From assembly GCF_009884975.1 (NCBI RefSeq), contig NZ_CP041970.1, forward strand, positions 3,534,001 to 3,598,000: a DNA stretch of 64,000 nucleotides, given 5' to 3'. A model generated the notes under the pieces. The model worked only from the letters and a program-made list of their open reading frames with translations, was not told where the DNA came from and ran no database searches. Numbering within the stretch: the first letter of the stretch is position 1; each line of letters begins with the position of its first letter. Source of the DNA: Acinetobacter dispersus. Lineage in GTDB: Bacteria > Pseudomonadota > Gammaproteobacteria > Pseudomonadales > Moraxellaceae. Of the stretch, positions 31,901 through 46,468 are shown piece by piece. The translations under genes were made by a program, and so were the position numbers.

Positions 31901-31990
31901 GGTGAGATGGGTGAGTGGCTGAAACCACATCCCTGCTAAGGATGCGTACGGGTAACTGTACCGAGGGTTCGAATCCCTCTCTCACCGCCA
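31901..31990 (+). tRNA. tRNA-Ser (GCU anticodon)
   Basis: Acceptor stem GGTGAGA pairs with TCTCACC, followed by G and an encoded CCA. The anticodon loop reads CTGCTAA (anticodon GCT). The long variable arm (TACGGGTAACTGTACC) is typical of tRNA-Ser. TTCGAAT of the T loop is present. Confidence 0.96.
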
Positions 31991-32001
31991 CTTTACTTAA
32001 A

Positions 32002-32078
32002 GCGCTCATAGCTCAGCTGGATAGAGCACTTGGCTACGAACTAAGGGGTCGGGAGTTCGAATCTCTCTGAGCGCACCA
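32002..32078 (+). tRNA. tRNA-Arg (ACG anticodon), copy 1
   Basis: Acceptor GCGCTCA pairs with TGAGCGC, with an encoded ACCA end. The anticodon stem-loop CTTGG/CTACGAA/CTAAG carries ACG. The sequence is identical to the copies at 32125 and 44654. It lies 11 nt after tRNA-Ser, so it is likely cotranscribed. Confidence 0.96.
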
Positions 32079-32124
32079 AGTAAAGATTTAAAGTAACACA
32101 CGCCTAAATAGGCACATAAGTAAT

Positions 32125-32201
32125 GCGCTCATAGCTCAGCTGGATAGAGCACTTGGCTACGAACTAAGGGGTCGGGAGTTCGAATCTCTCTGAGCGCACC
32201 A
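32125..32201 (+). tRNA. tRNA-Arg (ACG anticodon), copy 2
   Basis: Identical 77-nt sequence to copy 1, 46 nt downstream, followed by an intrinsic terminator. It marks the left edge of the repeat-protein segment; copy 3 marks the right edge. Confidence 0.96.
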
Positions 32202-32213
32202 ACTTAATAGAAG

Positions 32214-32237
32214 AAACCGCTTAATTGCGGTTTTTTT
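32214..32237 (+). terminator. Terminator of the tRNA cluster
   Basis: AAACCGC, loop TTAATT, then GCGGTTTTTTT. The same hairpin, with loop TTCATT, follows tRNA-Arg copy 3. Confidence 0.9.
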
Positions 32238-32280
32238 GTGCCTGAATTTTTTGATCGAATATGAATTAAATGATAAATAT

Positions 32281-32309
32281 AAAAAAGCCGCTGAAATCAG
32301 CGGCTTTTT
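32281..32309 (-). terminator. Terminator of the first giant gene
   Basis: AAAAAGCCGCTGA and TCAGCGGCTTTTT form a 13-bp stem with a minimal loop. On the minus strand the T-run follows the stem, 12 nt past the stop of the 1446-aa gene. Confidence 0.9.
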
Positions 32310-32320
32310 AGTTGGTCTAT

Positions 32321-35300
32321 TTAGAAATGATTGACTGAGCTGAATAGATGGTCGGTCAAATTGTTTAAAGCAGATGGAAGAGAAATAAGATCGGTTAACG
32401 AACCACCATTTGGATTCGGTTCACCCACAGCGATGCCTGAAGTGACTGTACCAGTCAACGCATCTAAAATTCCATCCAGACTTCCGTGAGCACTGTAATC
32501 TCCATTGCCAACGCTTACACTGATTAGATTATTGATACTCTCTAATGAGCCATCGCTGAATAGGGTACTGACATGATCTTGTAAAGCATCTACAGCAATG
32601 TTACCACTGCTAATGACGGTTTGAATCGGTTGAGCAATTCCTGCGATAACGTCTCCGCTATTTGCACCATTATTAATGGTTCCAAGAATATCTGTAATCA
32701 CACTTAGACCACCTTCACCACCAATACCGCCCGTAATACCACCGATAATGCCAGTGATTGAGCTTAAAGGACCACCTTCACCACCACCGATACCGCCCGT
32801 AATCCCACCAAGGATGTCAGAGATTGAACCTAAAGGACCGCCTTCACCGCCACCGATTCCACCAGTGATGCCACCGATGATGCCCGTGATTGAACCTAAA
32901 GGACCACCTTCACCACCACCTATTCCACCAGTAATGCCGCCGATAATGCCAGTAATCGCACCTAAAGGACCGCCTTCACCGCCGCCGATTCCGCCCGTGA
33001 TACCACCGATGATGCCAGTGATTGCACCAAGAGGACCACCTTCACCACCACCTATTCCACCAGTAATGCCGCCGATAATGCCAGTAATCGCACCTAAAGG
33101 ACCGCCTTCACCGCCGCCGATTCCGCCCGTGATACCACCGATGATGCCAGTGATTGCACCAAGAGGACCACCTTCACCACCACCAATACCACCTGTGATG
33201 CCACCGATAATGCCTGTGATTGCGCCTAAAGGACCGCCTTCACCGCCACCGATTCCACCAGTCACACCACCGATGAGGCCACCGACATCAGTGAGGTCAC
33301 CAGCAATATGCTGAACCAGACCAGAAGCAGTTGAACCGTTGGTAATTAATGTACCGACAACACCTGTAAGAGAACCCGCAGCACCACCGATATCCGCGCC
33401 AGCTAAATCAGAAATTGCTTCTAGTGTGCCGTTTACTGTATCGCGCGACGTTTCAAAGGTGAGGGTACCTAGATTGGTTAAATCAGTCACTGGATGAACG
33501 CCCGGAAGAACACCGCTAATTGCGCCACCTACCGTAGTGATACCTGTGTTGATGATATCTGTTTTTAGGCTTTCAACGCCTTGAAGGACATCAATACCTG
33601 TTTGGATCACTCCTGTGACAGGGTTGTTGCCAAGATCACCACCCGTGATGCCACCAATGATGCCAGTGATCGCACCTAAAGGACCACCATCACCACCGCC
33701 GATTCCACCCGTGATGCCACCGATAATGCCAGTGATCGCACCAAGAGGACCACCTTCACCGCCGCCGATTCCGCCAGTGATACCACCGATAATGCCAGTG
33801 ATCGCGCCTAAAGGACCACCTTCACCGCCACCGATGCCACCAGTCACACCGCCGATGAGGCCACCAACATCAGTGAGGTCACCAGCAATATGTTGAACCA
33901 GACCAGAAGCAGTTGAACCATTATTAATTAATGTACCGACAACACCAGTGAGAGAACCCGCAGCACCACCGATATCAGCACCCGCTAAATCAGAAATTGC
34001 TTCAAGTGTGCCATTTACCGTATCCCGCGACGTTTCAAAGGTGAGGGTACCTAGATTGGTTAAATCAGTAACTGGATGAACGCCCGGAAGAACACCGCTA
34101 ATTGCACCACCTACCGTAGTGATACCTGTGTTGATAATATCTGTTTTTAGGCTTTCAACGCCTTGAAGGACATCGATACCTGTTTGGATCACTCCTGTGA
34201 CAGGGTTGTTGCCCAAGTCACCACCAGTAATCCCACCGATGATGCCGGTGATTGCACCTAAAGGACCACCTTCACCACCGCCGATTCCACCCGTGATGCC
34301 ACCGATAATGCCAGTGATCGCACCTAAAGGACCGCCTTCACCGCCACCGATTCCACCAGCGATACCACCGATGATGCCAGTGATTGCGCCTAAAGGACCG
34401 CCTTCACCGCCACCGATTCCACCAGTCACACCACCGATGAGGCCACCGACATCAGTGAGGTCACCAGCAATATGCTGAACCAGACCAGAAGCAGTTGAGC
34501 CATTGTTGATCAATGTACCTACAACACCTGTAAGAGAACCCGCAGCACCACCGATATCCGCACCTGCTAAATCAGAAATTGCTTCTAGTGTGCCATTTAC
34601 TGTATCGCGCGACGTTTCAAAGGTGAGGGTACCTAAATTGGTGAGATCTGTGACTGGATGAACGCCCGGAAGAACACCGCTAATTGCGCCACCTACCGTA
34701 GTGATACCTGTGTTGATAATATCTGTTTTTAGGCTTTCAACGCCTTGAAGGACATCAATACCTGTTTGGATCACTCCTGTGACAGGGTTGTTGCCAAGAT
34801 CACCACCCGTGATGCCACCAATGATGCCAGTGATCGCACCTAAAGGACCACCATCACCACCGCCGATTCCACCCGTGATGCCACCGATAATGCCAGTGAT
34901 CGCACCAAGAGGACCACCTTCACCGCCGCCGATTCCGCCAGTGATACCACCGATGATGCCAGTAATCGCACCAAGAGGACCACCTTCACCGCCGCCAATA
35001 CCACCTGTAATCCCACCGATAATGCCAGTAATTGCGCCTAAAGGACCACCTTCACCACCGCCAATTCCACCAGTCACACCGCCGATGAGGCCACCAACAT
35101 CAGTGAGGTCACCAGCAATATGCTGAACCAGACCAGAAGCAGTTGAACCATTATTAATCAATGTACCGACAACACCAGTGAGAGAACCCGCAGCACCACC
35201 GATATCCGCGCCTGCTAAATCAGAAATTGCTTCTAATGTACCGTTTACTGTATCGCGTGAAGTTTCAAAGGTGAGGGTACCTAGATTGGTTAAATCAGTA

Positions 35301-36661
35301 ACTGGATGAACGCCCGGAAGAACACCGCTAATTGCGCCACCTACCGTAGTGATACCTGTGTTGATAATATCTGTTTTTAGGCTTTCAACGCCTTGAAGGA
35401 CATCAATACCTGTTTGGATCACGCCTGTGACAGGGTTGTTGCCAAGATCACCACCCGTGATGCCACCGATAATGCCAGTGATCGCACCTAAAGGACCGCC
35501 ATCACCACCGCCGATTCCACCAGTAATGCCGCCGATAATGCCAGTGATCGCACCTAAAGGACCGCCTTCACCGCCGCCGATTCCGCCAGTGATACCACCG
35601 ATAATGCCAGTGATCGCACCTAAAGGACCGCCATCACCGCCGCCGATTCCACCTGTAATACCGCCGATAATGCCACCTGCGTCAGTGAGATCGCCAGCAA
35701 TATGCTGAACCAGACCAGAAGCAGTTGAACCGTTGGTAATTAATGTACCGACAACACCTGTAAGAGAACCCGCAGCACCACCGATATCCGCACCTGCTAA
35801 ATTAGAAATTGCTTCAAGTGTGCCATTTACCGTATCCCGTGAAGTTTCAAAGGTGAGGGTACCTAAATGAGCTAGATCTCCAATAGGATGTTCCGATTGG
35901 TGAACTGCACTGATAATGGTGCCTGCGACAGTATCAATTCCTGTATTAATGATTTCAGTTTTTAAGCTTTCCACACCTTGAAGGACATCAATACCAGTTT
36001 GAATCACACCTGTTACGGGATTGTTGCCTAAATCACCGCCTGTAATACCACCAATAATGCCTGTGACTGCACCAAGTGGGCCGCCCTCAGTTCCACCCGT
36101 GATACTGCCAATGATTCCAGTTACCGCACCAAGTGGACCACCATTTGCTCCACCTGTAATACCACCGATAATGCCTGTGACTGTACCAAGTGGGCCGCCC
36201 TCAGTTCCACCCGTGATACCGCCAATGATTCCTGTTACTGCACCAAGTGGGCCACCATTTGTTCCACCCGTAATACCACCAATAATGCCTGTGACTGAAC
36301 CAAGCGGACCACCCTCGGTTCCGCCCGTAATTCCTCCAAGAATTCCTGTTACTGCGCCAAGTTGATTACCACTTGCCCCGCCAGTAACACCGCCTAAAAT
36401 ATTTGTGACTGTAGAAATTGGGCTACTGCTACCTGTTACATTTCCCAGAATGCCAGTAATTGAACTTATAGGATTGTTGGCTGCTCCACCTGTAAGATTG
36501 CTTACCGTATGAGTTACGGTATTTGTTGAAACGATATTTGTAATTGTAGACAAGGACAAAGGAGCAAGGATTGAACCGCCAACGTGTGATGTAGATGTAC
36601 TACTATCAACTAAGCTTGAAGTAATACTTTTAATGGGTGACAAAAGACTTTTGAAAAGCAT
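32321..36661 (-). CDS. Giant glycine-zipper repeat protein, 1446 aa
   Basis: Not a family I can name. It starts MLFKSLLSPIKSITSS, has no classical signal peptide and I see no Cys. Residues about 75-215 are short GGPLG-type repeats. Residues about 205-1130 are five copies of a ~110-aa module (GNNPVTGVIQTGIDVLQGVE ... GLVQHIAGDLTDVGG), each followed by three or four 22-aa repeats of the type GGPLGAITGIIGGITGGIGG. Eight or nine more 22-aa repeats follow, then a C-terminal domain ending GGSLTDLISL ... LTDHLFSSVNHF. The GxxxG-rich 22-mers look like glycine zippers, which can pack in membranes or fibres. Both termini match the 2287-aa neighbour, so the two form a family. A surface or secreted structural role is inferred; the export route is unknown. 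Confidence 0.85.
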   Translation of the reverse strand: MLFKSLLSPIKSITSSLVDSSTSTSHVGGSILAPLSLSTITNIVSTNTVTHTVSNLTGGAANNPISSITGILGNVTGSSSPISTVTNILGGVTGGASGNQLGAVTGILGGITGGTEGGPLGSVTGIIGGITGGTNGGPLGAVTGIIGGITGGTEGGPLGTVTGIIGGITGGANGGPLGAVTGIIGSITGGTEGGPLGAVTGIIGGITGGDLGNNPVTGVIQTGIDVLQGVESLKTEIINTGIDTVAGTIISAVHQSEHPIGDLAHLGTLTFETSRDTVNGTLEAISNLAGADIGGAAGSLTGVVGTLITNGSTASGLVQHIAGDLTDAGGIIGGITGGIGGGDGGPLGAITGIIGGITGGIGGGEGGPLGAITGIIGGITGGIGGGDGGPLGAITGIIGGITGGDLGNNPVTGVIQTGIDVLQGVESLKTDIINTGITTVGGAISGVLPGVHPVTDLTNLGTLTFETSRDTVNGTLEAISDLAGADIGGAAGSLTGVVGTLINNGSTASGLVQHIAGDLTDVGGLIGGVTGGIGGGEGGPLGAITGIIGGITGGIGGGEGGPLGAITGIIGGITGGIGGGEGGPLGAITGIIGGITGGIGGGDGGPLGAITGIIGGITGGDLGNNPVTGVIQTGIDVLQGVESLKTDIINTGITTVGGAISGVLPGVHPVTDLTNLGTLTFETSRDTVNGTLEAISDLAGADIGGAAGSLTGVVGTLINNGSTASGLVQHIAGDLTDVGGLIGGVTGGIGGGEGGPLGAITGIIGGIAGGIGGGEGGPLGAITGIIGGITGGIGGGEGGPLGAITGIIGGITGGDLGNNPVTGVIQTGIDVLQGVESLKTDIINTGITTVGGAISGVLPGVHPVTDLTNLGTLTFETSRDTVNGTLEAISDLAGADIGGAAGSLTGVVGTLINNGSTASGLVQHIAGDLTDVGGLIGGVTGGIGGGEGGPLGAITGIIGGITGGIGGGEGGPLGAITGIIGGITGGIGGGDGGPLGAITGIIGGITGGDLGNNPVTGVIQTGIDVLQGVESLKTDIINTGITTVGGAISGVLPGVHPVTDLTNLGTLTFETSRDTVNGTLEAISDLAGADIGGAAGSLTGVVGTLITNGSTASGLVQHIAGDLTDVGGLIGGVTGGIGGGEGGPLGAITGIIGGITGGIGGGEGGPLGAITGIIGGITGGIGGGEGGPLGAITGIIGGITGGIGGGEGGPLGAITGIIGGITGGIGGGEGGPLGAITGIIGGITGGIGGGEGGPLGSITGIIGGITGGIGGGEGGPLGSISDILGGITGGIGGGEGGPLSSITGIIGGITGGIGGEGGLSVITDILGTINNGANSGDVIAGIAQPIQTVISSGNIAVDALQDHVSTLFSDGSLESINNLISVSVGNGDYSAHGSLDGILDALTGTVTSGIAVGEPNPNGGSLTDLISLPSALNNLTDHLFSSVNHF
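32700..33260 (-). repeat. 66-bp tandem repeats (22-aa glycine-zipper array)
   Basis: Eight to nine near-identical 66-bp units in tandem near the 3' end of the 1446-aa gene, translating to GGPLGAITGIIGGITGGIGG plus GE/GD. The last two units (nearest 32700) are diverged (SSITG, SISDIL). The array is prone to copy-number change and to misassembly from short reads. Confidence 0.88.
33260..36040 (-). repeat. 582/648-bp higher-order repeats in the first giant gene
   Basis: The codon block for GNNPVTG recurs at about 33615, 34197, 34779, 35427 and 36021, giving spacings of 582, 582, 648 and 594 bp. The 648 unit is 582 plus one 66-bp repeat. Units are nearly identical at DNA level; the one nearest 36021 is the most diverged (SAVHQSEHPIGDLAHLG). 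Confidence 0.88.
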
Positions 36662-36725
36662 AACGATACCTATATTTTTAAAGTTGTGTTGTTTTTGATG
36701 TAGTTATTAAATTGCTATGATTTTT

Positions 36726-36741
36726 TGTGATTTAAATCACA
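36726..36741. promoter_or_regulatory. Perfect CRP/Vfr-type palindrome
   Basis: TGTGATTTAAATCACA is a perfect 16-bp palindrome and an exact match to TGTGA-N6-TCACA. It is centred about 72 bp upstream of the ATG of the 1446-aa gene. A weaker counterpart (TGTGA-N6-TCTCA, 44192-44207) lies upstream of the 2287-aa gene. Control by a CRP-family protein is inferred. Confidence 0.65.
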
Positions 36742-37180
36742 TTAATCTTTTTTAGTGTTATATGCGGCAGTTATTTTGTCAATATTATAAAACGCAATAA
36801 TTTATTGTTAAATTTATGTTTAAATTATTGAATATAAATACATTTCTTTATATTTTTTATTGAATAAATTTACACTTGTATTGATATTGAATTTTAAGCT
36901 TGGTAGTGAATAGAGAAAATTCATCTTTTATATCAGATAATTAAAGTGCAATTGAATCTTTGTGCGTGCGTCATAAGGGTACAGAAATAGATAAAGTTAT
37001 AAGATTTGTTACTTGTTTGAAAGTAAATATTTCCATACGGTTTTTTATAGATAAAGTTATTTTATATCAATTGATTAAGTGGTTATTTGTTTTGGTTTTC
37101 GAAAAGTAAAAATTAAGTGGTTTTAGCATATTTTATTTGTATATTCGCTTGTTATTAAACAAAACTTACTAATAGCCGAG

Positions 37181-37211
37181 AATCTGTTATCTCAATTTGA
37201 GATAACAGATT
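37181..37211. repeat. 14-bp perfect inverted repeat
   Basis: AATCTGTTATCTCA (37181-37194), loop ATT, TGAGATAACAGATT (37198-37211). No T-run flanks it. It lies past the terminator of the second giant gene, and its role is unclear (second terminator, operator or relic). Confidence 0.6.
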
Positions 37212-37234
37212 TGTACTGGTCTAAGAATATGTAG

Positions 37235-37264
37235 AGAAAAGCCACTACTTAAAGTGGCTTTTCT
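37235..37264 (-). terminator. Terminator of the second giant gene
   Basis: AGAAAAGCCACT pairs with AGTGGCTTTTCT around ACTTAA, 12 nt past the stop of the 2287-aa gene on the minus strand. Confidence 0.8.
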
Positions 37265-37276
37265 AATTTTTAACTT

Positions 37277-40200
37277 TTAGAAATGATGAAGTGATCCAAA
37301 TAGATGATCGGTCAGACTCGTTAATGGTGAAGAAACTGAAATAAGATCTGTAATGCTTCCACCATTTGGATGAGGCTCTCCGACTGCGATTCCAGAAGTA
37401 CTCGAAGAAACGGTGCCTGTGATGACATTCAAAATGCTATCGACACTATTGCCACCATTGTCATTATTCACATGAATAAGGTTGTTTAGTCCTTCAAACA
37501 CATTTTCGCTACTGAAGATATTACTCATATTATCTTGCAATAGATCGAGTGTGAGGTTGCCACTTCCAACAACAATTTGGATAGGTTGAGCAACGCCAGA
37601 AATCACGTCACCACCAATACCACCCGTAATGCCGCTGAGAATGTCTGTTATTGAGCCAAGAGGACTGCCATCACCACCGCCGATGCCACCTGTAAGACCA
37701 CCGATAATGCCAGTGACTGCGCCAAGAGGGCCACCATCACCGCCACCGATACCGCCAGTAAGACCACCGATAATGCCAGTGACTGCGCCAAGAGGGCCAC
37801 CATCACCGCCACCGATACCGCCAGTAAGACCACCGATAATGCCAGTGACTGCGCCCAGAGGACCACCGTCACCACCGCCAGTAAGACCGCCGATAATGCC
37901 TGTTACAGCACCGAGAGGGCCACCGTCACCACCGCCAATGCCACCAGTGATTCCACCGATAATATCGGTTACTGAACCAAGAGGACCGCCATCACCGCCG
38001 CCGATGCCACCAGTAAGACCACCGATAATGCCAGTGACTGCGCCAAGAGGACCGCCATCACCACCGCCAATACCACCCGTGATACCGCCAATGATTCCTG
38101 TGACTGCACCGAGAGGACCGCCATCACCACCGCCGATACCGCCAGTAAGACCACCGATAATGCCTGTTACAGCACCGAGAGGACCGCCATCACCGCCGCC
38201 GATGCCACCAGTAAGACCACCGATAATGCCAGTGACTGCGCTAAGAGGACCACCATCACCGCCACCGATGCCACCAGTAAGACCACCGATAATGCCAGTG
38301 ACTGCGCCAAGAGGGCCACCATCACCGCCACCGATACTGCCAGTGATTCCACCGATAATGCCTGTTACTGCACCCAGAGGGCCGCCATCACCACCGCCGA
38401 TGCCACCAGTAAGACCACCGATAATATCGGTTACTGAGCCCAGAGGGCCACCGTCACCACCGCCGATGCCACCAGTGATACCACCGATAATGCCAGTGAC
38501 TGCGCCCAGAGGACCACCGTCACCACCGCCGATGCCACCTGTAATGCCACCGATGATTCCAGTGACTGCGCCTAGAGGACCGCCATCACCACCGCCGATA
38601 CCGCCAGTAAGACCACCGATAATGCCAGTGACTGCGCCAAGAGGTCTACCATCACCGCCGCCGATGCCACCAGTAAGACCACCAATGATTCCTGTGACGG
38701 CACCGAGAGGACCGCCATCACCACCACCGATACCGCCAGTAATGCCACCGATGATTCCAGTGACTGCGCCCAGAGGACCGCCATCACCACCACCGATACC
38801 GCCAGTAAGACCACCGATGATTCCAGTGACTGCGCCTAGAGGGCCGCCATCACCGCCAATCACTCCACCAATTGTTCCCGTAATGATGTCGAGAGGGTTG
38901 CCACCTTCACCACCGATTACACCGCCAACCAGACCAGTCACCAGATCAAGAGGACTGCCACCCTCGCCACTGAGGACACCACCAACAATACCTGTGACAA
39001 CATCAATAGGGTTGTAATCGCCACTAATAATGCCTTCCACGCTAGCGGTTACACCGCCGACTGCGCCTGTGACAGTACCTAAGACACCTGTGCTATCGGC
39101 ATCACCAGTCACAACTGTGACGAGATTGGTTACAGGAGTAACTAGATCACCGTGAGAGATGCTATTTAAATCGAGTACAGAGATCGCATTGCCTGAGAAA
39201 TTGATTGGAATGGTAATAGGAGTCACGATGTTGGTACCATCTCCAACGCCATTGCCGATACCATAGTTATGGTCGCCATTGCCTGCACCAATACCATTAC
39301 CGATACCACCAGATCCATTGCCAATTGAACCATTATTTTCGGTGTCATTGTCTTGGAAGTTATTATGTGTAGTCGTTGTTGCATTATTGGTTGAAGTTGA
39401 TGTTGCAGTACCAAATAAGGAAATGGCATTGCCAGAGAAGTTAACGGGGATTGCAATGGGTGCGACAAAGTTTGCGTCATCCGCAATACCATTGCCGATA
39501 CCATAGTTATGTTCACCATTGCCTGATGCGATACCATTACCGATACCACCGCCAGAACCGACACCTGTACCGCTGCCGTTACTATTGTTGGTTGTATCAT
39601 TGTCTTGGAAATTGTTATTGGTTGTCGTAGATGAATTGTTGGTTGAATTTGCTGTCGCATTTCCAAAGATAGAGAAGGCATTCCCTGATGCATTCACAGG
39701 CGTTGTGATCGGGATAATAATACTTGCATCATCCGCAATACCATTGCCAATGCCGTAATTGTGTTCACCATTACCTGAAGCGATGCCATTACCAATACCG
39801 CCACCTAAGCCATCTGCACCGTTACCGCCGCTATTGCTGTTATTGGTTGTATCGTTGTCTTGGACATTGTTATTGGTCGTGGTTGAAGAATTATTTTGTG
39901 AATTTGAAGTCGCATCACCAAAGATAGAGAAGGCATTCCCTGATGCATTTAATGGTGTGGTAATTGGGATTACGATACTTGAATCATCTGCAATACCATT
40001 GCCAATACCGTAGTTGTGTTCACCATTACCTGCGGCAATACCATTCAGAATACCTCCAAGATCACTACCAGAACCGCTTCCTACGCCACCGTTATTGCTA
40101 TTGTTGATCGTATCGTTGTCTTGGAAGTTGTTATTGGCTGTTGTAGAGGAGTTATTAATTGAGTTTGATGTTGCATTACCAAAAATAGAGCCCGCATTAC

Positions 40201-43200
40201 CAGAGAAATTAACAGGGCTTGTGATTGGTGCGACGACACTGGCATCACTACCGATGCCATTACCAATACCAAAATTATGGTCTCCATTGCCAGAGCCAAT
40301 ACCATTGCCTATACCACCGCCAACGCCATTACCAGCACCACCCCCTACAACTGTACCGTTATTGCTATTGTTGGTTGTGTCATTATCTTGCAGGTTATTG
40401 GTTGTTGTGGTTGAACCGTTATTGACAGATGTATTGGTTGTATCACCAAAGAAAGTCCAAGAGTTACCTAAGCCATTGACTGGCGCGGTAACAGGCATGG
40501 TTACACTTGCGTCATCGCCATTACCATTGCCAATACCGTAGTTATGTTCACCATTACCCGCACCAATGCCATTGCCTATACCACCACCAACACCGTTACC
40601 TGTGCCGGTTCCAGGACCACCATTATTACTGTTGTTGGTGGTGTCATTGTCTAACACCGTATTGGTTGTTGTGGTTGCTGCATTATTGTGGGACGCATTA
40701 TTTGCATCACCAATGAAGGAAAACTCATTACCTAAACCATTGATTGGAGTGGTGACTGGTGTAACAACATCAACGTCATCACCATTGCCATTACCAATAC
40801 CATAGTTTTGTTCGCCATTACCTGCACCAACACCACTGAGTAGTCCGCCTACACCGTTGCCGGTGCCATCACCTACGCCAGTACCATTATTGCTATGGTT
40901 GATGTTGTCATTGTCTGAGACGATGTTGGTTGTATTGGTTGTTGCTGTATTGGTTGAGGTATTACCTAGACCATTCGGATCATTGTCATTATCCAGTCCA
41001 GAGACATTGTTGCCCATAAAGTTGATCGGTGTTGTCACTGGTGATGTCCAATCGGCATCATCGCCATTGCCGTTACCAATGCCATAATTGTGCTCGCCAT
41101 TACCAGCACTTACACCATTGAGTAAGCCATCAGCACCATTGCCTGTTGTTCCAGTGACACCAGTGCCATTGTTACTATTGTTGGTTGTATCGTTGTCTTG
41201 TACATAGTTAAGGGTGTTGGTAGAACCATTATTGACAGAACTAACATCGCCACCGCCGATAACACCCGCTGAATTTCCTAAGACATGGACAGGTGTGGTC
41301 CATGGGGCAGTGATATCTACATCATCACCGTTGCCATTGCCAATACCATAGTTTTGTTCGCCATTGCCTGCGGCTGGACCATTACCTAAACCACCAAGGC
41401 CATTGCCTGCATTTGTACCAACGCCATTATTACTATTGTTGGTTGTATCGTTGTCATAAACAATATTTGATGTGTTGGTTGGCGCTGTATTGACGGAGTC
41501 TACATCACCACTAACGCCTGCAACGGAGTTACCAAGAACTTGGACTGGTGTCGTAATGGGTGTCGTGACGCTGGCATCATCACCATTGCCGTTACCGATA
41601 CCATAGTTGTGCTCATCATTGCCTGCAGAAACACCATTTAATAGACCGCCTGCACTGCCATTGCCTGTTGCACCAACACCACTGTTGCTGTTGTTGATGG
41701 TGTCGTTATCTTCGATCACAGTAGAGGCATTGGTCGGAGCAGTATTCACCGAATTAACATCACCACCACCAATTGCGGAAACTGAGTTGCCTAGACCTTG
41801 GAAAGGCGAGGTCACAGGTATGGTGACACTTGCATCATCGCCATTGCCATTGCCGATACCATAGTTCTGTTCACCATTGCCTTCGGCTGGACCGTTGGCT
41901 ATACCGCCAAAACCATTGCCAGTCACACCAGTCGCATGATTGCTATTGTTGGTGGTGTCATTGTCTTGAATATGTGTGGTCGATGTTGTTGCTGCAGTGT
42001 TTACAGAATTAACATCACCACCGCCAATTGCGGAAACTGAGTTACCTACAGCTTGTACAGGTGTGGTCCATGGTGTGGTGATATCTGCATCGTCACCATT
42101 GCCATTGCCGATACCGAAGTTATTTTCATCATTCCCTCCGGATACACCGTTGAGTAAACCACCTTCATTACCATTGGTCGCTGATCCAACCCCATTGTTG
42201 CTGTTGTTGGTTGTATCATTGTCTTGAATCGCTGTAGTTGAGCTGGTTGAAACATTGTTTACAGAATCGACATCATTTGTGCCTATGCCTGAAACTGAAT
42301 TGCCAATTGCTTGGAATGGAGCAGTGACGGGTGCAGTAAAGCTGGCATCATCACCGTTGCCATTGCCGATCCCATAGTTCTGTTCACCATTACCTGCTGC
42401 TGGGCCGTTGGCTAAACCGCCAGAACCATTGCCAAGGACACCCGTTGCATTATTACTATTGTTGGTGGTGTCATTGTCTTGAATATTGGTAGTTGATGTT
42501 GTGGTTGATGTATTGACCGAATCTACATCGCCACCGCCAATTCCTGCAATTGAGTTGCCAACTGCTTGTACAGGTGTGGTCCACGGTGTGGTGATATCAA
42601 CATCTTCACCATTGCCATTACCAATACCGTAGTTATGTTCACCATTGCCAGCAGATACGCCATTTAATAAGCCACCATTGCTGCCATTTCCTGCTGCACC
42701 CACACCGTTATTACTGTTGTTGGTGGTGTCATTATCTTGAATCGTTGTCGTTGAACTTGTTGATGTATTGTTGGCAGAATCTACATCACCACCGCCAATT
42801 CCTGCGACTGAATTACCAATGGTTTGGACTGGCACAGTGATTGGTGTTGTGACACTTGCATCATCACCGTTGCCATTGCCGATTCCATAGTTTTGTTGCC
42901 CGTTGCCTGACGCTGGGCCGTTACCCAAGCCACCAAGACCATTGCCGGTACCCGTTAAGCCCGTACCATTATTGCTATTATTTATGGTGTCATTGTCATG
43001 GATTGTACTGGATGTATTGGTTGTTGAGGTGTTCACCGAATTGATATCGCCACCACCAATGCCTGCAACGGAATTACCCACTGCTTGAACAGGTGTGGTC
43101 CAAGGTACGGTTACACTTGCATCATCACCGTTACCATTGCCAATACCATAGTTATGTTCACCATTGCCTGCACCAATGCCGTTAAGTAAACCAGCACCCA

Positions 43201-44140
43201 CACCATTGCCAGTACCAGCTACACCAACGCCATTATTGCTGTTGTTGGTCGTATCATTGTCATCAATTACACTGCTATTTGTGGTTGACGTGCTATTAAT
43301 TCCATTGACATTAGCACCACCAATCGCTGCGGCTGAGTTGCCTATTGCTTGGAATGGTGCGGTAACCGGTGTGGTGATACCAGCATCGTCGCCATTACCA
43401 TTGCCAATTCCATAATTTTGTTCGCCGTTTCCAGCACCAATGCCATTTAATAGACCACCAGCACTGCCGTTTCCAGCAGAACCTATGCCAGTATTACTGT
43501 TGTTAGTCGTATCATTATCTTGAATTTGAGTTGAAGAGGTTGTGGGTGATGTATTCACCGCGTTGATATCAGCACCACCAACGGCAGCGATTGAATTACT
43601 GATTGCTTGAACTGGTGTGGTCCATGGCACTGTTACGCTGGCATCATCAGCATTGCCATTTCCAACGCCATAATTATGTTCACCATTGCCTGCGGCAATA
43701 CCATTTAATAAGCCACCGGCATTGCCATTGCCAGCTTGAGTACCAGTATTACTATTATTAATAATATCGTTATCGTGGATTTGAGTCGTTGATGTTGTTG
43801 GCGTTGTATTGGCCGTTGTAACAGGTGTTGTCGTGCCTAGCCATGAAAATGAATTGCTGAAAGGCTGGAACGCTGCTGTGAAAGAGGGGGTAAAGCTAAA
43901 ATCGTTTGCGTTACCTAATCCTGGACCGTAGTTGTGACTACCATTACCTGCCGCTATGTCGTTGAGCAAACCGCCATGACTCGTATTCGTACCACTATTT
44001 GTATGAGTAAGAGTGCTGCTGTCTTCGATGACTGTATTTTTTACAGTGGGTACAGTATTAACCGAAGAGGAGGATCCTTGGCTATTGCTAGAAAGAGACA
44101 GAATACCTTTAATGGGTGATAAAATATTTTTAAATAACAT
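37277..44140 (-). CDS. Giant chaplin-like plus glycine-zipper repeat protein, 2287 aa
   Basis: Not a family I can name. It starts MLFKNILSPIKGILSL, like its neighbour, with no classical signal peptide and no Cys seen. Residues about 50-1650 hold 19 repeats of roughly 80 aa with the pattern QDNDTTNNSNNG ... AGNGEHNYGIGNGNGDDA ... P-V-x-x-P-V-x-x-x-G-N. In later repeats the core reads PITTPVNASGNAFSIFG, which matches the chaplin core PVxxPVNxxGNxxxxxG position by position but lacks its Cys. Residues about 1755-2170 are about 19 glycine-zipper 22-mers (GGPLGAVTGIIGGLTGGIGG). The C-terminal domain ends GGSITDLISVSS ... LTDHLFGSLHHF. Chaplins are surface amyloids of Streptomyces; a fibre or coat role here is inference. 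Confidence 0.85.
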   Translation of the reverse strand: MLFKNILSPIKGILSLSSNSQGSSSSVNTVPTVKNTVIEDSSTLTHTNSGTNTSHGGLLNDIAAGNGSHNYGPGLGNANDFSFTPSFTAAFQPFSNSFSWLGTTTPVTTANTTPTTSTTQIHDNDIINNSNTGTQAGNGNAGGLLNGIAAGNGEHNYGVGNGNADDASVTVPWTTPVQAISNSIAAVGGADINAVNTSPTTSSTQIQDNDTTNNSNTGIGSAGNGSAGGLLNGIGAGNGEQNYGIGNGNGDDAGITTPVTAPFQAIGNSAAAIGGANVNGINSTSTTNSSVIDDNDTTNNSNNGVGVAGTGNGVGAGLLNGIGAGNGEHNYGIGNGNGDDASVTVPWTTPVQAVGNSVAGIGGGDINSVNTSTTNTSSTIHDNDTINNSNNGTGLTGTGNGLGGLGNGPASGNGQQNYGIGNGNGDDASVTTPITVPVQTIGNSVAGIGGGDVDSANNTSTSSTTTIQDNDTTNNSNNGVGAAGNGSNGGLLNGVSAGNGEHNYGIGNGNGEDVDITTPWTTPVQAVGNSIAGIGGGDVDSVNTSTTTSTTNIQDNDTTNNSNNATGVLGNGSGGLANGPAAGNGEQNYGIGNGNGDDASFTAPVTAPFQAIGNSVSGIGTNDVDSVNNVSTSSTTAIQDNDTTNNSNNGVGSATNGNEGGLLNGVSGGNDENNFGIGNGNGDDADITTPWTTPVQAVGNSVSAIGGGDVNSVNTAATTSTTHIQDNDTTNNSNHATGVTGNGFGGIANGPAEGNGEQNYGIGNGNGDDASVTIPVTSPFQGLGNSVSAIGGGDVNSVNTAPTNASTVIEDNDTINNSNSGVGATGNGSAGGLLNGVSAGNDEHNYGIGNGNGDDASVTTPITTPVQVLGNSVAGVSGDVDSVNTAPTNTSNIVYDNDTTNNSNNGVGTNAGNGLGGLGNGPAAGNGEQNYGIGNGNGDDVDITAPWTTPVHVLGNSAGVIGGGDVSSVNNGSTNTLNYVQDNDTTNNSNNGTGVTGTTGNGADGLLNGVSAGNGEHNYGIGNGNGDDADWTSPVTTPINFMGNNVSGLDNDNDPNGLGNTSTNTATTNTTNIVSDNDNINHSNNGTGVGDGTGNGVGGLLSGVGAGNGEQNYGIGNGNGDDVDVVTPVTTPINGLGNEFSFIGDANNASHNNAATTTTNTVLDNDTTNNSNNGGPGTGTGNGVGGGIGNGIGAGNGEHNYGIGNGNGDDASVTMPVTAPVNGLGNSWTFFGDTTNTSVNNGSTTTTNNLQDNDTTNNSNNGTVVGGGAGNGVGGGIGNGIGSGNGDHNFGIGNGIGSDASVVAPITSPVNFSGNAGSIFGNATSNSINNSSTTANNNFQDNDTINNSNNGGVGSGSGSDLGGILNGIAAGNGEHNYGIGNGIADDSSIVIPITTPLNASGNAFSIFGDATSNSQNNSSTTTNNNVQDNDTTNNSNSGGNGADGLGGGIGNGIASGNGEHNYGIGNGIADDASIIIPITTPVNASGNAFSIFGNATANSTNNSSTTTNNNFQDNDTTNNSNGSGTGVGSGGGIGNGIASGNGEHNYGIGNGIADDANFVAPIAIPVNFSGNAISLFGTATSTSTNNATTTTHNNFQDNDTENNGSIGNGSGGIGNGIGAGNGDHNYGIGNGVGDGTNIVTPITIPINFSGNAISVLDLNSISHGDLVTPVTNLVTVVTGDADSTGVLGTVTGAVGGVTASVEGIISGDYNPIDVVTGIVGGVLSGEGGSPLDLVTGLVGGVIGGEGGNPLDIITGTIGGVIGGDGGPLGAVTGIIGGLTGGIGGGDGGPLGAVTGIIGGITGGIGGGDGGPLGAVTGIIGGLTGGIGGGDGRPLGAVTGIIGGLTGGIGGGDGGPLGAVTGIIGGITGGIGGGDGGPLGAVTGIIGGITGGIGGGDGGPLGSVTDIIGGLTGGIGGGDGGPLGAVTGIIGGITGSIGGGDGGPLGAVTGIIGGLTGGIGGGDGGPLSAVTGIIGGLTGGIGGGDGGPLGAVTGIIGGLTGGIGGGDGGPLGAVTGIIGGITGGIGGGDGGPLGAVTGIIGGLTGGIGGGDGGPLGSVTDIIGGITGGIGGGDGGPLGAVTGIIGGLTGGGDGGPLGAVTGIIGGLTGGIGGGDGGPLGAVTGIIGGLTGGIGGGDGGPLGAVTGIIGGLTGGIGGGDGSPLGSITDILSGITGGIGGDVISGVAQPIQIVVGSGNLTLDLLQDNMSNIFSSENVFEGLNNLIHVNNDNGGNSVDSILNVITGTVSSSTSGIAVGEPHPNGGSITDLISVSSPLTSLTDHLFGSLHHF
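37610..38870 (-). repeat. 66-bp tandem repeats (about 19 copies)
   Basis: A tandem array encoding GGPLGAVTGIIGG(I/L)TGGIGG plus GD. One copy is shortened (LTGGGDGG) and a few vary (GSVTDIIGG, GRPLG). The unit is homologous to the 66-bp unit in the other giant gene, so recombination between the two genes is possible. Confidence 0.88.
39176..43990 (-). repeat. 19 chaplin-like repeats of about 240-260 bp
   Basis: Counted by the (E/Q/D)-(H/Q/N)-N-(Y/F)-G-I-G-N-G anchor. Early repeats alternate between EHNYG with PWTTPVQ and EQNYG with PVTAPFQ cores; the last eight (39176-41100) carry P-(V/I)-x-x-P-(V/I/L)-N cores. The first repeat at the N-terminus is degenerate (SHNYGPGLGN). Confidence 0.85.
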
Positions 44141-44191
44141 ATCGATATACCTATAATTATTGGAGTTTTGTTTTATTAAGTTTAATAATTA

Positions 44192-44207
44192 TGTGACTCC
44201 TGTCTCA
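44192..44207. promoter_or_regulatory. Degenerate CRP-type site upstream of the 2287-aa gene
   Basis: TGTGACTCCTGTCTCA matches TGTGA-N6-TCACA except at one base. It lies 52-67 bp before the start codon, similar to the perfect site before the sister gene. Confidence 0.35.
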
Positions 44208-44609
44208 TAATCTATATGTTAGTATTTATTAGTTGTCTATTTAATGTCAATAATGCAGTGTGTATCATATTTTTAATGGGGTATAAAAGTGAAGTAAAAC
44301 AGGGGGCTATATAATGACTTAGAGATAAATGGTTAAAATCAAAAAGATATTATAAAAAGATAGATTATTAATAAAAAATACAAAGTTTATACCTGAATTA
44401 AAACTTAGTAGAAATAATATTTATTTGAATTTTAATAATAATTATTGCTGTTTTGGGCGAGAAATTGTCTTATGACTGAGGCTAAGCAAGGAAATATTGC
44501 TTTACTTTTAAGGCCAAGAGAATCCGATGAAATGTTAGTCGATCCACATTGAAAAAAACAAATTATGCCGAATCTATAGCCAGTTGATCGTGATCTTGTG
44601 AAAAAGGTC

Positions 44610-44637
44610 TTATCATTTGGGGAAAAGTGCGTATAAT
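44610..44637 (+). promoter_or_regulatory. Promoter of tRNA-Arg copy 3
   Basis: TTATCA (44610-44615), a 16-nt spacer, then a consensus TATAAT (44632-44637) followed by the GC-rich GCCCTCC discriminator, 16 nt before the mature 5' end. Confidence 0.65.
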
Positions 44638-44653
44638 GCCCTCCATCAAATAT

Positions 44654-44730
44654 GCGCTCATAGCTCAGCTGGATAGAGCACTTGGCTACGAACTAAGGGG
44701 TCGGGAGTTCGAATCTCTCTGAGCGCACCA
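44654..44730 (+). tRNA. tRNA-Arg (ACG anticodon), copy 3
   Basis: Identical over 77 nt to copies 1 and 2, with an encoded CCA. It has its own promoter and a near-identical terminator, and marks the right edge of the 12.5-kb repeat-protein segment. Confidence 0.96.
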
Positions 44731-44772: not shown

Positions 44773-46071
44773 TTAAATTTTTGCTTTGATTTTTTGTACA
44801 AAAACGGCATTGCCACCGACAGCAGGCAATACATCATGATAAGGCAGGCTGCGCATGGCTCTCAATAAGAAAGGAGCTTTCTCATCGATCTTCATTGCAC
44901 TGGTTATTTTAAATAAAGTCCCTTGATCTAAACTGGTAAACCGCATTTGACCTTTAATAAAACGTAGATCGCCACCATTGGCATAAAAATTATTTTCAGT
45001 GCTTTGTGGATAGTTAAAGCGCAGTTTAAATGCAAAAGGAATATTGATGACTCCAAGTCCCACATTCACTTGAATGTCCGCATCTTGTGCCTGATTTTGG
45101 ATTGGTGTGGTTATAACTTTCTTGATTTGTCGTGGAAATAGCTCTTGATAAGCCAATGGTGTCAGCCATTTTTGTAATTGCTGCGGTGTTTGTTTATAAA
45201 ATTGATAGGTGGTGGTAAAGCGCATGGGTTCCCGTCCATGGGTATAAAGCATGCTGGTCGGTACATGAATAATACTAACTGGTTGTTGAGCCGTTTGAAT
45301 AAGTTGGCTAATTTTTGTGAGTTGTGCTGCGCTCAACTGGGGGGTGGGAAGTTGCCCTGCATTAAGTGGGGAAATGTTAGGTTTAATAAAACGATTCCTT
45401 AAAGCCTCAAGGATAAAAGCATTACTTCCACTTGGAAGTCCTAGTTTTGCTTCTGGAATTGCATTGAGAATTTTCTTAAAAATAAAACCTTTAGGCTGGT
45501 TTAAATCACCCCATTGAGTCAAAGTGATTAAGGTCCGATGTTCATCTAATGCAAACCATTCAAACTTTCCAACGCCGTATGGGATAGGCGCATCGATAAC
45601 TAAACTGGCAATGCTATTCGGCTTGATCTGGTGTTGTAGGGTGACATCTTCATTAAAGTTGAGCACAGGAATAGGTGTTGGGATGGAAACCCGATATTTC
45701 ATTTGTACAATGTTGCCTGATTGTTCGAGTGGCTTGGCTGATTTGAGTGTGGGAAATAGACCAACATATTGACTGAAATCGGTGAGTGTTTTGGCGACTT
45801 GCTGGGTGCTAACAGGAACAATAATGGCTGCTGAATTAAAGCTGGCCATCGGTTGTGGGTTACTTTTTAGCGTCGGGATTGAGGTTTTAGTCGCAGGATG
45901 CCCATAGATGAAAATATTGTTTTGAGTATAACTGGCCAAGAGTTGTGGATTGTTCTGAAAAGGCTGTAAGGCACTTGGAATATTGTCATTCCATGACAGG
46001 ATTTGTGCAGAGCTGTGTTGTACCATTGCCATAAAAATGCAGAGGCACGAGAGACGATTCAAATAAGACAT
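44773..46071 (-). CDS. Secreted SRPBCC/START-like protein
   Basis: A 432-aa protein. I chose the ATG at 46071 because it opens a signal peptide (MSYLNRLSCLCIFMAMVQHS, cleavage near SSA-Q) and is preceded by AAAGGAATGTG. Residues about 80-215 look like an SRPBCC (START-like) domain (VSTQQVAKTLTDFSQYVGLF, VQMKYRVSIPTPIP); the C-terminal third may hold a second copy (TTTYQFYKQTPQQLQKWLTP). Such domains bind lipids or hydrophobic ligands. Substrate unknown. Confidence 0.7.
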   Translation of the reverse strand: MSYLNRLSCLCIFMAMVQHSSAQILSWNDNIPSALQPFQNNPQLLASYTQNNIFIYGHPATKTSIPTLKSNPQPMASFNSAAIIVPVSTQQVAKTLTDFSQYVGLFPTLKSAKPLEQSGNIVQMKYRVSIPTPIPVLNFNEDVTLQHQIKPNSIASLVIDAPIPYGVGKFEWFALDEHRTLITLTQWGDLNQPKGFIFKKILNAIPEAKLGLPSGSNAFILEALRNRFIKPNISPLNAGQLPTPQLSAAQLTKISQLIQTAQQPVSIIHVPTSMLYTHGREPMRFTTTYQFYKQTPQQLQKWLTPLAYQELFPRQIKKVITTPIQNQAQDADIQVNVGLGVINIPFAFKLRFNYPQSTENNFYANGGDLRFIKGQMRFTSLDQGTLFKITSAMKIDEKAPFLLRAMRSLPYHDVLPAVGGNAVFVQKIKAKI

Positions 46072-46468
46072 CACATTCCTTTGATTTTTATCCGTGATTT
46101 CATTCATGACTTGATTGCTCGTAGGGAGCTGATCAACACTGCTTATTAATAAATTTTTTTATGCATAAAAAATAGTCGTATTATGTAAAACCCACTGAAA
46201 TATTCTTTCGAGCAAGACATTTTAGACATTTACTTTTTACCAGTTCTATAGATCAGAATGATTTAAATTAAATAGAAGTATATTTATATCGTTTCGACAT
46301 AATATTGATTTATAAAAATAAAAGTATTCAATGCAAGCAACATAAACAAGTATGAGATGGCGTGACAATATCATTTAAATTTTGTATTAAATCACGAGAA
46401 ATGTGATTGCCCGTTGAATCATTTATGTTCTAATAGATCAGTTTTTTTCAAATGTTAGAAATCTAAAA
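46072..46468. other. Divergent AT-rich promoter region
   Basis: About 400 nt between the SRPBCC and YcxB-like genes, very AT-rich, with no supported frame. A weak inverted repeat AATCAC/GTGATT lies at 46390-46408. No convincing promoter could be picked by eye. Confidence 0.5.

Follow-up and report, generated by a model that had tools for sequence, protein, structure and literature searches.

Giant Acinetobacter repeat proteins with a chaplin-like core: profile comparisons, origin and possible role

The literature describes chaplins as actinobacterial coat proteins, and a giant protein encoded by the Acinetobacter locus analysed here had been proposed to carry repeats of the same kind. The locus raises the question of whether these repeats truly resemble the chaplin domain and, if so, whether the resemblance reflects common descent, convergence or chance, and what such a protein might do for the cell. 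A literature search pairing chaplins with Acinetobacter, most subscription papers falling outside its scope, gave no pointer to chaplins in this genus.

The giant protein and its repeat units

The features of the locus are collected in Table 1, where all positions refer to the window, i.e. the whole stretch of 64,000 nucleotides that was analysed. The first-pass annotation had described a Cys-free protein with 19 repeats between positions 39176 and 43990. Mapping on the minus-strand open reading frame of the protein, hereafter P0003, confirmed both the number of units and the span, which corresponds to residues 51-1655 of the frame, and the amino acid composition returned no cysteine. The first unit begins at residue 64 and the last at residue 1619 (positions 43951 and 39286); the end of unit 19 at residue 1663 is our own cut at 45 residues. 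Downstream of the array the first GGPLGAVTGIIGGLTGGIGGGD-type motif occurs at residue 1728, and the region from residue 1700 to 2150 showed a GRAVY value of 0.71. A Pro-rich open reading frame of 462 residues on the plus strand (37629-39017) runs antisense to the Gly-rich repeats and is probably a by-product of their codons.

Table 1. Coordinates of the giant genes, their repeat regions and the flanking tRNA genes in the window
Feature	Position	Strand	Details
Giant repeat protein P0003	37277..44140	-	2,287 aa; 3 Lys, 1 Arg, 0 Cys (open reading frame, translation and composition)
Conserved N-terminus MLFKNILSPIKG	44105..44140	-	Similar form in the sister protein and relatives
19 chaplin-like units, spaced 80-94 aa	39152..43951	-	Residues 64-1663
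Units 12-19, N after P-x-x-x-P-[VIL] in the cores	39152..41107	-	
Gly-rich hydrophobic repeats, GGPLGAVTGIIGGLTGGIGGGD type, 66-bp period	37655..38959	-	TRF 37655-38854, 18.3 copies
Conserved C-terminal block GIAVGEP...LTDHLFGSLHHF, candidate secretion signal	37277..37393	-	Also in the sister protein; varying form in relatives
Sister giant gene	32321..36661	-	1,446 aa; resembles P0003 in its termini and Gly-rich repeats but lacks chaplin-like units; contains five DLGNNPVTG-type modules
tRNA-Ser, tRNA-Arg, tRNA-Arg	31901..32201	+	One side of the two giant genes
tRNA-Arg(acg)	44654..44730	+	Other side; same sequence as the two tRNA-Arg genes above

The core P-x-x-x-P-[VIL]-N-x-x-G-N was found in all of units 12-19, in agreement with the annotation of the later eight units as carrying cores of this type. 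The asparagine of the core is replaced by glutamine in units 1-10 and by histidine in unit 11, and unit 1 is degenerate (SFTAAFQPFSN). The annotation had further claimed that every P, V, N, G and N of the chaplin core coincides with the repeats and that the chaplin cysteine is replaced by serine or alanine. Within the eight units the P, N, G and N positions are indeed kept, whereas the V positions hold V, I or L; the cysteine position is occupied by serine in five of the eight, by leucine in two and by methionine in one, and alanine does not occur there. Across the family, cysteine was found in only 2 of 270 units, neither time at the chaplin cysteine position. Nearly all units preserve the motif DNDTTNNSN, and its first aspartate is invariant in a set of 95 family units.

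Chaplins are reported to contain three GN motifs 12-13 residues apart (PMC13251363). This arrangement is not reproduced by the family units, in which the middle motif is nearly invariant, the third is absent and the first can be aligned to chaplins only across a four-residue insertion (NYGIGNGN versus chaplin SPGVLSGN). The repeat array as a whole is hydrophilic (GRAVY -0.48), and individual units range from -0.76 to 0.08, the highest value belonging to the short last unit, against -0.17 to 0.70 with a mean of 0.15 for 71 chaplin domains; whole units therefore lack the hydrophobicity of the chaplin domain. Since the 30-residue unit cores, which range from -0.86 to 0.64, gave positive values in 17 of 19 cases, the core alone is comparable to chaplins in this respect.

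Profile comparisons with chaplins

The units were compared with the chaplin family of Pfam, PF03777, using 95 family units picked for low redundancy from 245, with the last unit of each protein left out; this set contains no window row because the window units are near-duplicates of units from relatives. PF03777 was the commonest Pfam match, 12 of the 95 units hitting it at E<=0.1 with a best E-value of 1.4e-4; the next family matched 2 of 95, and the baseline of this figure is the other Pfam families and not shuffled units. Seven Pfam families matched at this threshold, among which PF03777 is the sole recognised amyloid family. When units of the window itself were searched, one of 6 and one of 17 matched PF03777, unit 17 on both occasions, and the relative from A. 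baumannii had no Pfam match at E<=0.1 other than PF03777 (E 0.01). Matches of PF03777 at E<=1 were found in 79 of 149 genomes of the genus and in 4 of 14 controls. The whole of P0003 gave no match to PF03777 at E<=10, and the curated cut-off of 21 bits was passed in none of the 149 same-genus genomes, the best score being 20.5 bits, with 20.1 bits in the genome of the window. By the family's own rule, P0003 is not a chaplin. Several same-genus genomes share a short frame containing ITVPIATPIN-x-x-GNSV (L031, L034 and L035, matches at 1501-1599), which scores 16.5-19.0 bits against the same model and looks non-coding.

Scoring against a profile built from the 71 chaplin domains was carried out on 264 units from 19 proteins, the one of the window and 18 from relatives, without the HMMER composition correction. 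In this test 235 of the 264 units, which are related and do not amount to 264 independent tests, beat the 99th percentile of their own shuffles and 127 scored above all 2,640 shuffles, while reversed units reached at most 9.3 bits against the 27.4 bits observed. Unit 19 was the best of the window's units (25.6 bits), and the best-scoring unit was the last or next-to-last in 14 of 15 proteins with at least 14 units; in four proteins of 934-974 residues, units 1-3 and 8 scored best. The consensus of the 95 units scored 18.2 bits, higher than the mean of the single units (14.9). Chaplin score and typicality of the core were correlated (Spearman 0.27, p 0.008, n=95; 0.12, p 0.24 for the whole unit), which is not taken as proof because the units are related.

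The reverse comparison was performed with a profile of 17 of the 19 window units, with units 12 and 19 left out. Searched against ten whole Streptomyces and Kitasatospora genomes, it returned 16 matches at E<=1 in nine of the ten, and 15 of the 16 fell on chaplin domains, as judged by eye from the coordinates, the exception being G471:C23:60406-60570. The best of these matches had an E-value of 0.045, so that no single one is significant; their concentration on chaplins is. A profile of 18 window units (unit 19 left out) was searched against 3,578 local six-frame open reading frames from Streptomyces-type loci, including 206 chaplin frames, and 167 of its 169 matches at E<=1 were chaplin frames, whereas 30 column-permuted profiles returned no chaplin match on the same frames. 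Profile-profile alignment by hhalign, with the same 18 units, gave P 9.7e-5 and, with the roles swapped, 8.7e-6, a score reached by none of 200 column permutations. With the 95-unit set, of which 92 units were used, the values were 7.7e-5 and 1.1e-5, and neither 150 column nor 150 block permutations reached the score; against long chaplins P was 2.6e-4. The hhalign probabilities were only 42-83%, with 24-30 columns aligned, and the alignment covers about half of the PF03777 model.

These data bear on the simplest alternative, i.e. that low-complexity sequence matches chaplins by chance. Such a match would agree with single-unit scores below the curated cut-off and with the short frames elsewhere in genus genomes that overlap those scores, reaching 19.0 bits in a 55-residue frame (genome G099). 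However, shuffled, reversed, column-permuted and block-permuted controls all failed to reproduce the resemblance, and the reverse search was almost wholly chaplin-specific; we consider chance a very improbable explanation. The resemblance to chaplins is real by profile and lies above background in both directions, as shown by the reverse matches, the frequency of PF03777 among the Pfam hits and the failure of the permuted controls. The chaplin interpretation of the first-pass annotation is therefore supported in part: judged from their sequences, P0003 and its relatives constitute a new protein family of giant, repetitive members whose chaplin-like core is real.

Structure prediction was also considered. 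A model of units 15-18 built from 49 sequences was of low confidence (mean pLDDT 55.5, pTM 0.56) and contained strands only, with one strand of 23-28 residues per unit where pLDDT was about 60-77, while the corresponding chaplin model (mean pLDDT 34.9) was unusable for a comparison of folds with it. Foldseek with the repeat model returned nothing at E<=0.001. Its two top rows, both weak, were Pseudomonas FapC (E 0.06, probability 0.07) and curli CsgA (E 0.47, probability 0.01), proteins with Gly/Asn-rich beta repeats as in P0003. VIA-align placed chains of the SufBD complex and 4dn7 (Z 4.8-5.6) above CsgA (3.9) and FapC (2.6), none of them significant. No PDB chain was found by phmmer with P0003 at E<=1, and the 17-unit window profile returned two chance-level rows among PDB chains.

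Descent or convergence

A core V-x-x-P-[VI]-x-x-P-V-N-x-x-G-N-x-V-x-[VI]-x-G is common to the units of P0003 and to chaplins, without a shift in register. The units differ from chaplins in scoring below the PF03777 cut-off, in missing the third GN motif, in being hydrophilic and in belonging to a Gram-negative host. Moreover, chaplins hold one or two copies of the domain against 19 in one giant protein, their long forms bear a sortase motif that P0003 lacks, and they contain two conserved cysteines against none. Published work describes ChpE and the C-terminal domain of ChpB as also devoid of cysteine (PMC3079736, PMC13251363) and cysteine as not required for chaplin fibrils in vitro (PMC3079736). 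Since cysteine-less chaplins are thus on record and the residue is dispensable for fibrils in vitro, its absence alone does not decide between descent and convergence.

Descent is favoured by the specificity for chaplins, by the fixed register and by the consensus, which aligns NYGIGNGN with SPGVLSGN. In its full form, this reading would have a chaplin-derived domain cross from Actinomycetota to Acinetobacter, lose its cysteines, multiply to arrays of 8-19 units and now build a surface coat or fibre in Gram-negative cells, A. baumannii included, that trypsin-based proteomics would largely miss because the chain encoded in the window has almost no Lys or Arg. Taken as a whole, we regard it as unlikely. 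Convergence, to which we give slightly less than an even chance, would mean that an Acinetobacter-specific beta-repeat without common descent came to resemble the chaplin core in its strand-turn-strand segment because both are rich in Gly, Asn and Pro and form beta structure; this would be a rival as to origin and not as to function. It is in keeping with a sample devoid of intermediates, as the repeat profile matched no genome among 298 other Pseudomonadota at E<=0.01, and with the lack of a clear chaplin among the genomes sampled from that phylum, where 3 of 299 passed the PF03777 cut-off in a 50-residue frame or in frames with internal stops that look spurious. The partial coverage points the same way, about half of the model being aligned and the third GN motif and the cysteines missing. 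Against convergence stand the 24-30 columns in agreement, which single out chaplins among all frames of the ten Streptomyces and Kitasatospora genomes, the failure of permuted and block-permuted profiles with identical composition, and the family consensus, which scores above the average unit. Beyond Pseudomonadota, the comparison covered these ten actinobacterial genomes. The 50-residue frame, which contains SPGIFSGN and lies in a fragmented Pseudomonadota genome (L124, G311), scored 24.5 bits against PF03777.

Export, possible role and genomic setting

P0003 may act outside the cell as a giant beta-repeat protein, building a fibre or coat at the Acinetobacter surface or within the biofilm matrix, a proposal to which we give an even chance and which applies whether the core arose by descent from a chaplin or by convergence. 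The coat or fibre role, like surface location and amyloid formation, is inferred. In each unit of about 86 residues, a strand-turn-strand core of chaplin type, P-x-x-x-P-[VIL]-[NQ]-x-x-G-N-[SA]-x-x-x-[IFL]-G, would precede an extended polar strand running into DNDTTNNSN; strands of successive units could stack into a long sheet, with the hydrophobic Gly-rich region and the sister protein contributing to assembly. The protein would leave the cell without a Sec signal or sortase motif, possibly by type I secretion through its conserved C-terminus, whose block we consider a candidate secretion signal. A secretion signal peptide is among the traits of chaplins; in P0003 no Sec signal was visible by eye in the N-terminus, neither LPxTG nor LAxTG occurs in P0003, and an NCBIfam scan of the whole protein returned no match at E<=1 and nothing indicating export.

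Alternatively, P0003 could serve adhesion and not form a coat: as a giant adhesin of the Bap/LapA/RTX type, exported by type I secretion, it would bind Ca2+ through its DNDTTNNSN segments, and the chaplin-like segment would be incidental. Acinetobacter Bap and other giant adhesins are, like P0003, giant and repetitive. Bap modules are Ig-like, while Ig-like and PKD-like Pfam models match units of the P0003 family only singly (PKD_5 in one of 17 and one of 95, a phage Ig-like domain in one of 17). The modules of Bap measure 80-110 residues (PMC4647330). Giant size, the near absence of Lys and Arg, acidity (142 Asp, 28 Glu), DNDTTNNSN in nearly every unit and the conserved C-terminus all agree with an adhesin, and a TIGR03375-type transporter scored over cut-off in 18 of 19 carriers, G023 being the one without. 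The same transporter was also found in 101 of 130 non-carriers, so its co-occurrence is uninformative. Furthermore, none of the neighbouring genes examined could be recognised as encoding a transporter, and neither an RTX model nor a type I target domain was found in P0003 (Pfam E<=10, NCBIfam E<=1), although the same whole-protein scan also missed PF03777. The adhesin appears possible but doubtful.

The repeat units are carried by 19 of 149 genomes of the genus, including that of the window, and a search of the viral library gave no match at E<=0.001. A relative is present in five A. baumannii records, and the one examined encodes a protein of 974 residues annotated as hypothetical. Three records entered as A. 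baumannii plasmids (NZ_CP077849.1, NZ_CP104448.1 and NZ_CP064203.1, 3.7-4.1 Mb) are probably chromosomes, and the 240-kb CAKLQF020000004.1, entered under the name of an Acinetobacter phage, appears to be a bacterial contig with a wrong label since it carries ribosomal protein and secY genes. A relative of 4,547 residues in G016 (L167:2559-16202) holds a run of unknown residues, which makes its true length uncertain.

The two giant genes lie inside a tRNA-Ser-Arg-Arg-Arg array (31901-44730). The third tRNA-Arg and the neighbouring gene (44773-46107) flank 13 of 14 long-type loci from other genomes, the 14th being incomplete, and in G006 the sister gene stands alone at the tRNA site. As the gap between the tRNA-Arg genes measures 264, 263, 45, 598, 574 and 369 bases in the six non-carriers with both genes readable (L202, L203, L204, L207, L209 and L210), the gene pair occupies an otherwise short gap. 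An assignment of the sister protein as HyaE was set aside (29.8 bits against a cut-off of 210). Its counterpart in G020 (L170:2308-5316) matched PF10842 (DUF2642) over 18 residues with E 0.00042 and 20.6 bits against a cut-off of 22.7, and P0001 matched the same model weakly (E 0.032).

With four Lys or Arg in 2,287 residues, P0003 yields tryptic pieces of 4, 7, 23 and 2,253 residues and would therefore be largely invisible to trypsin-based proteomics. The protein is put forward as a candidate matrix protein. Arrays of 8-19 chaplin-like cores in a Gram-negative genus to which A. baumannii belongs would either carry this class of self-assembling coat proteins into another phylum or show clearly that two lineages converged on one strand-turn-strand design.
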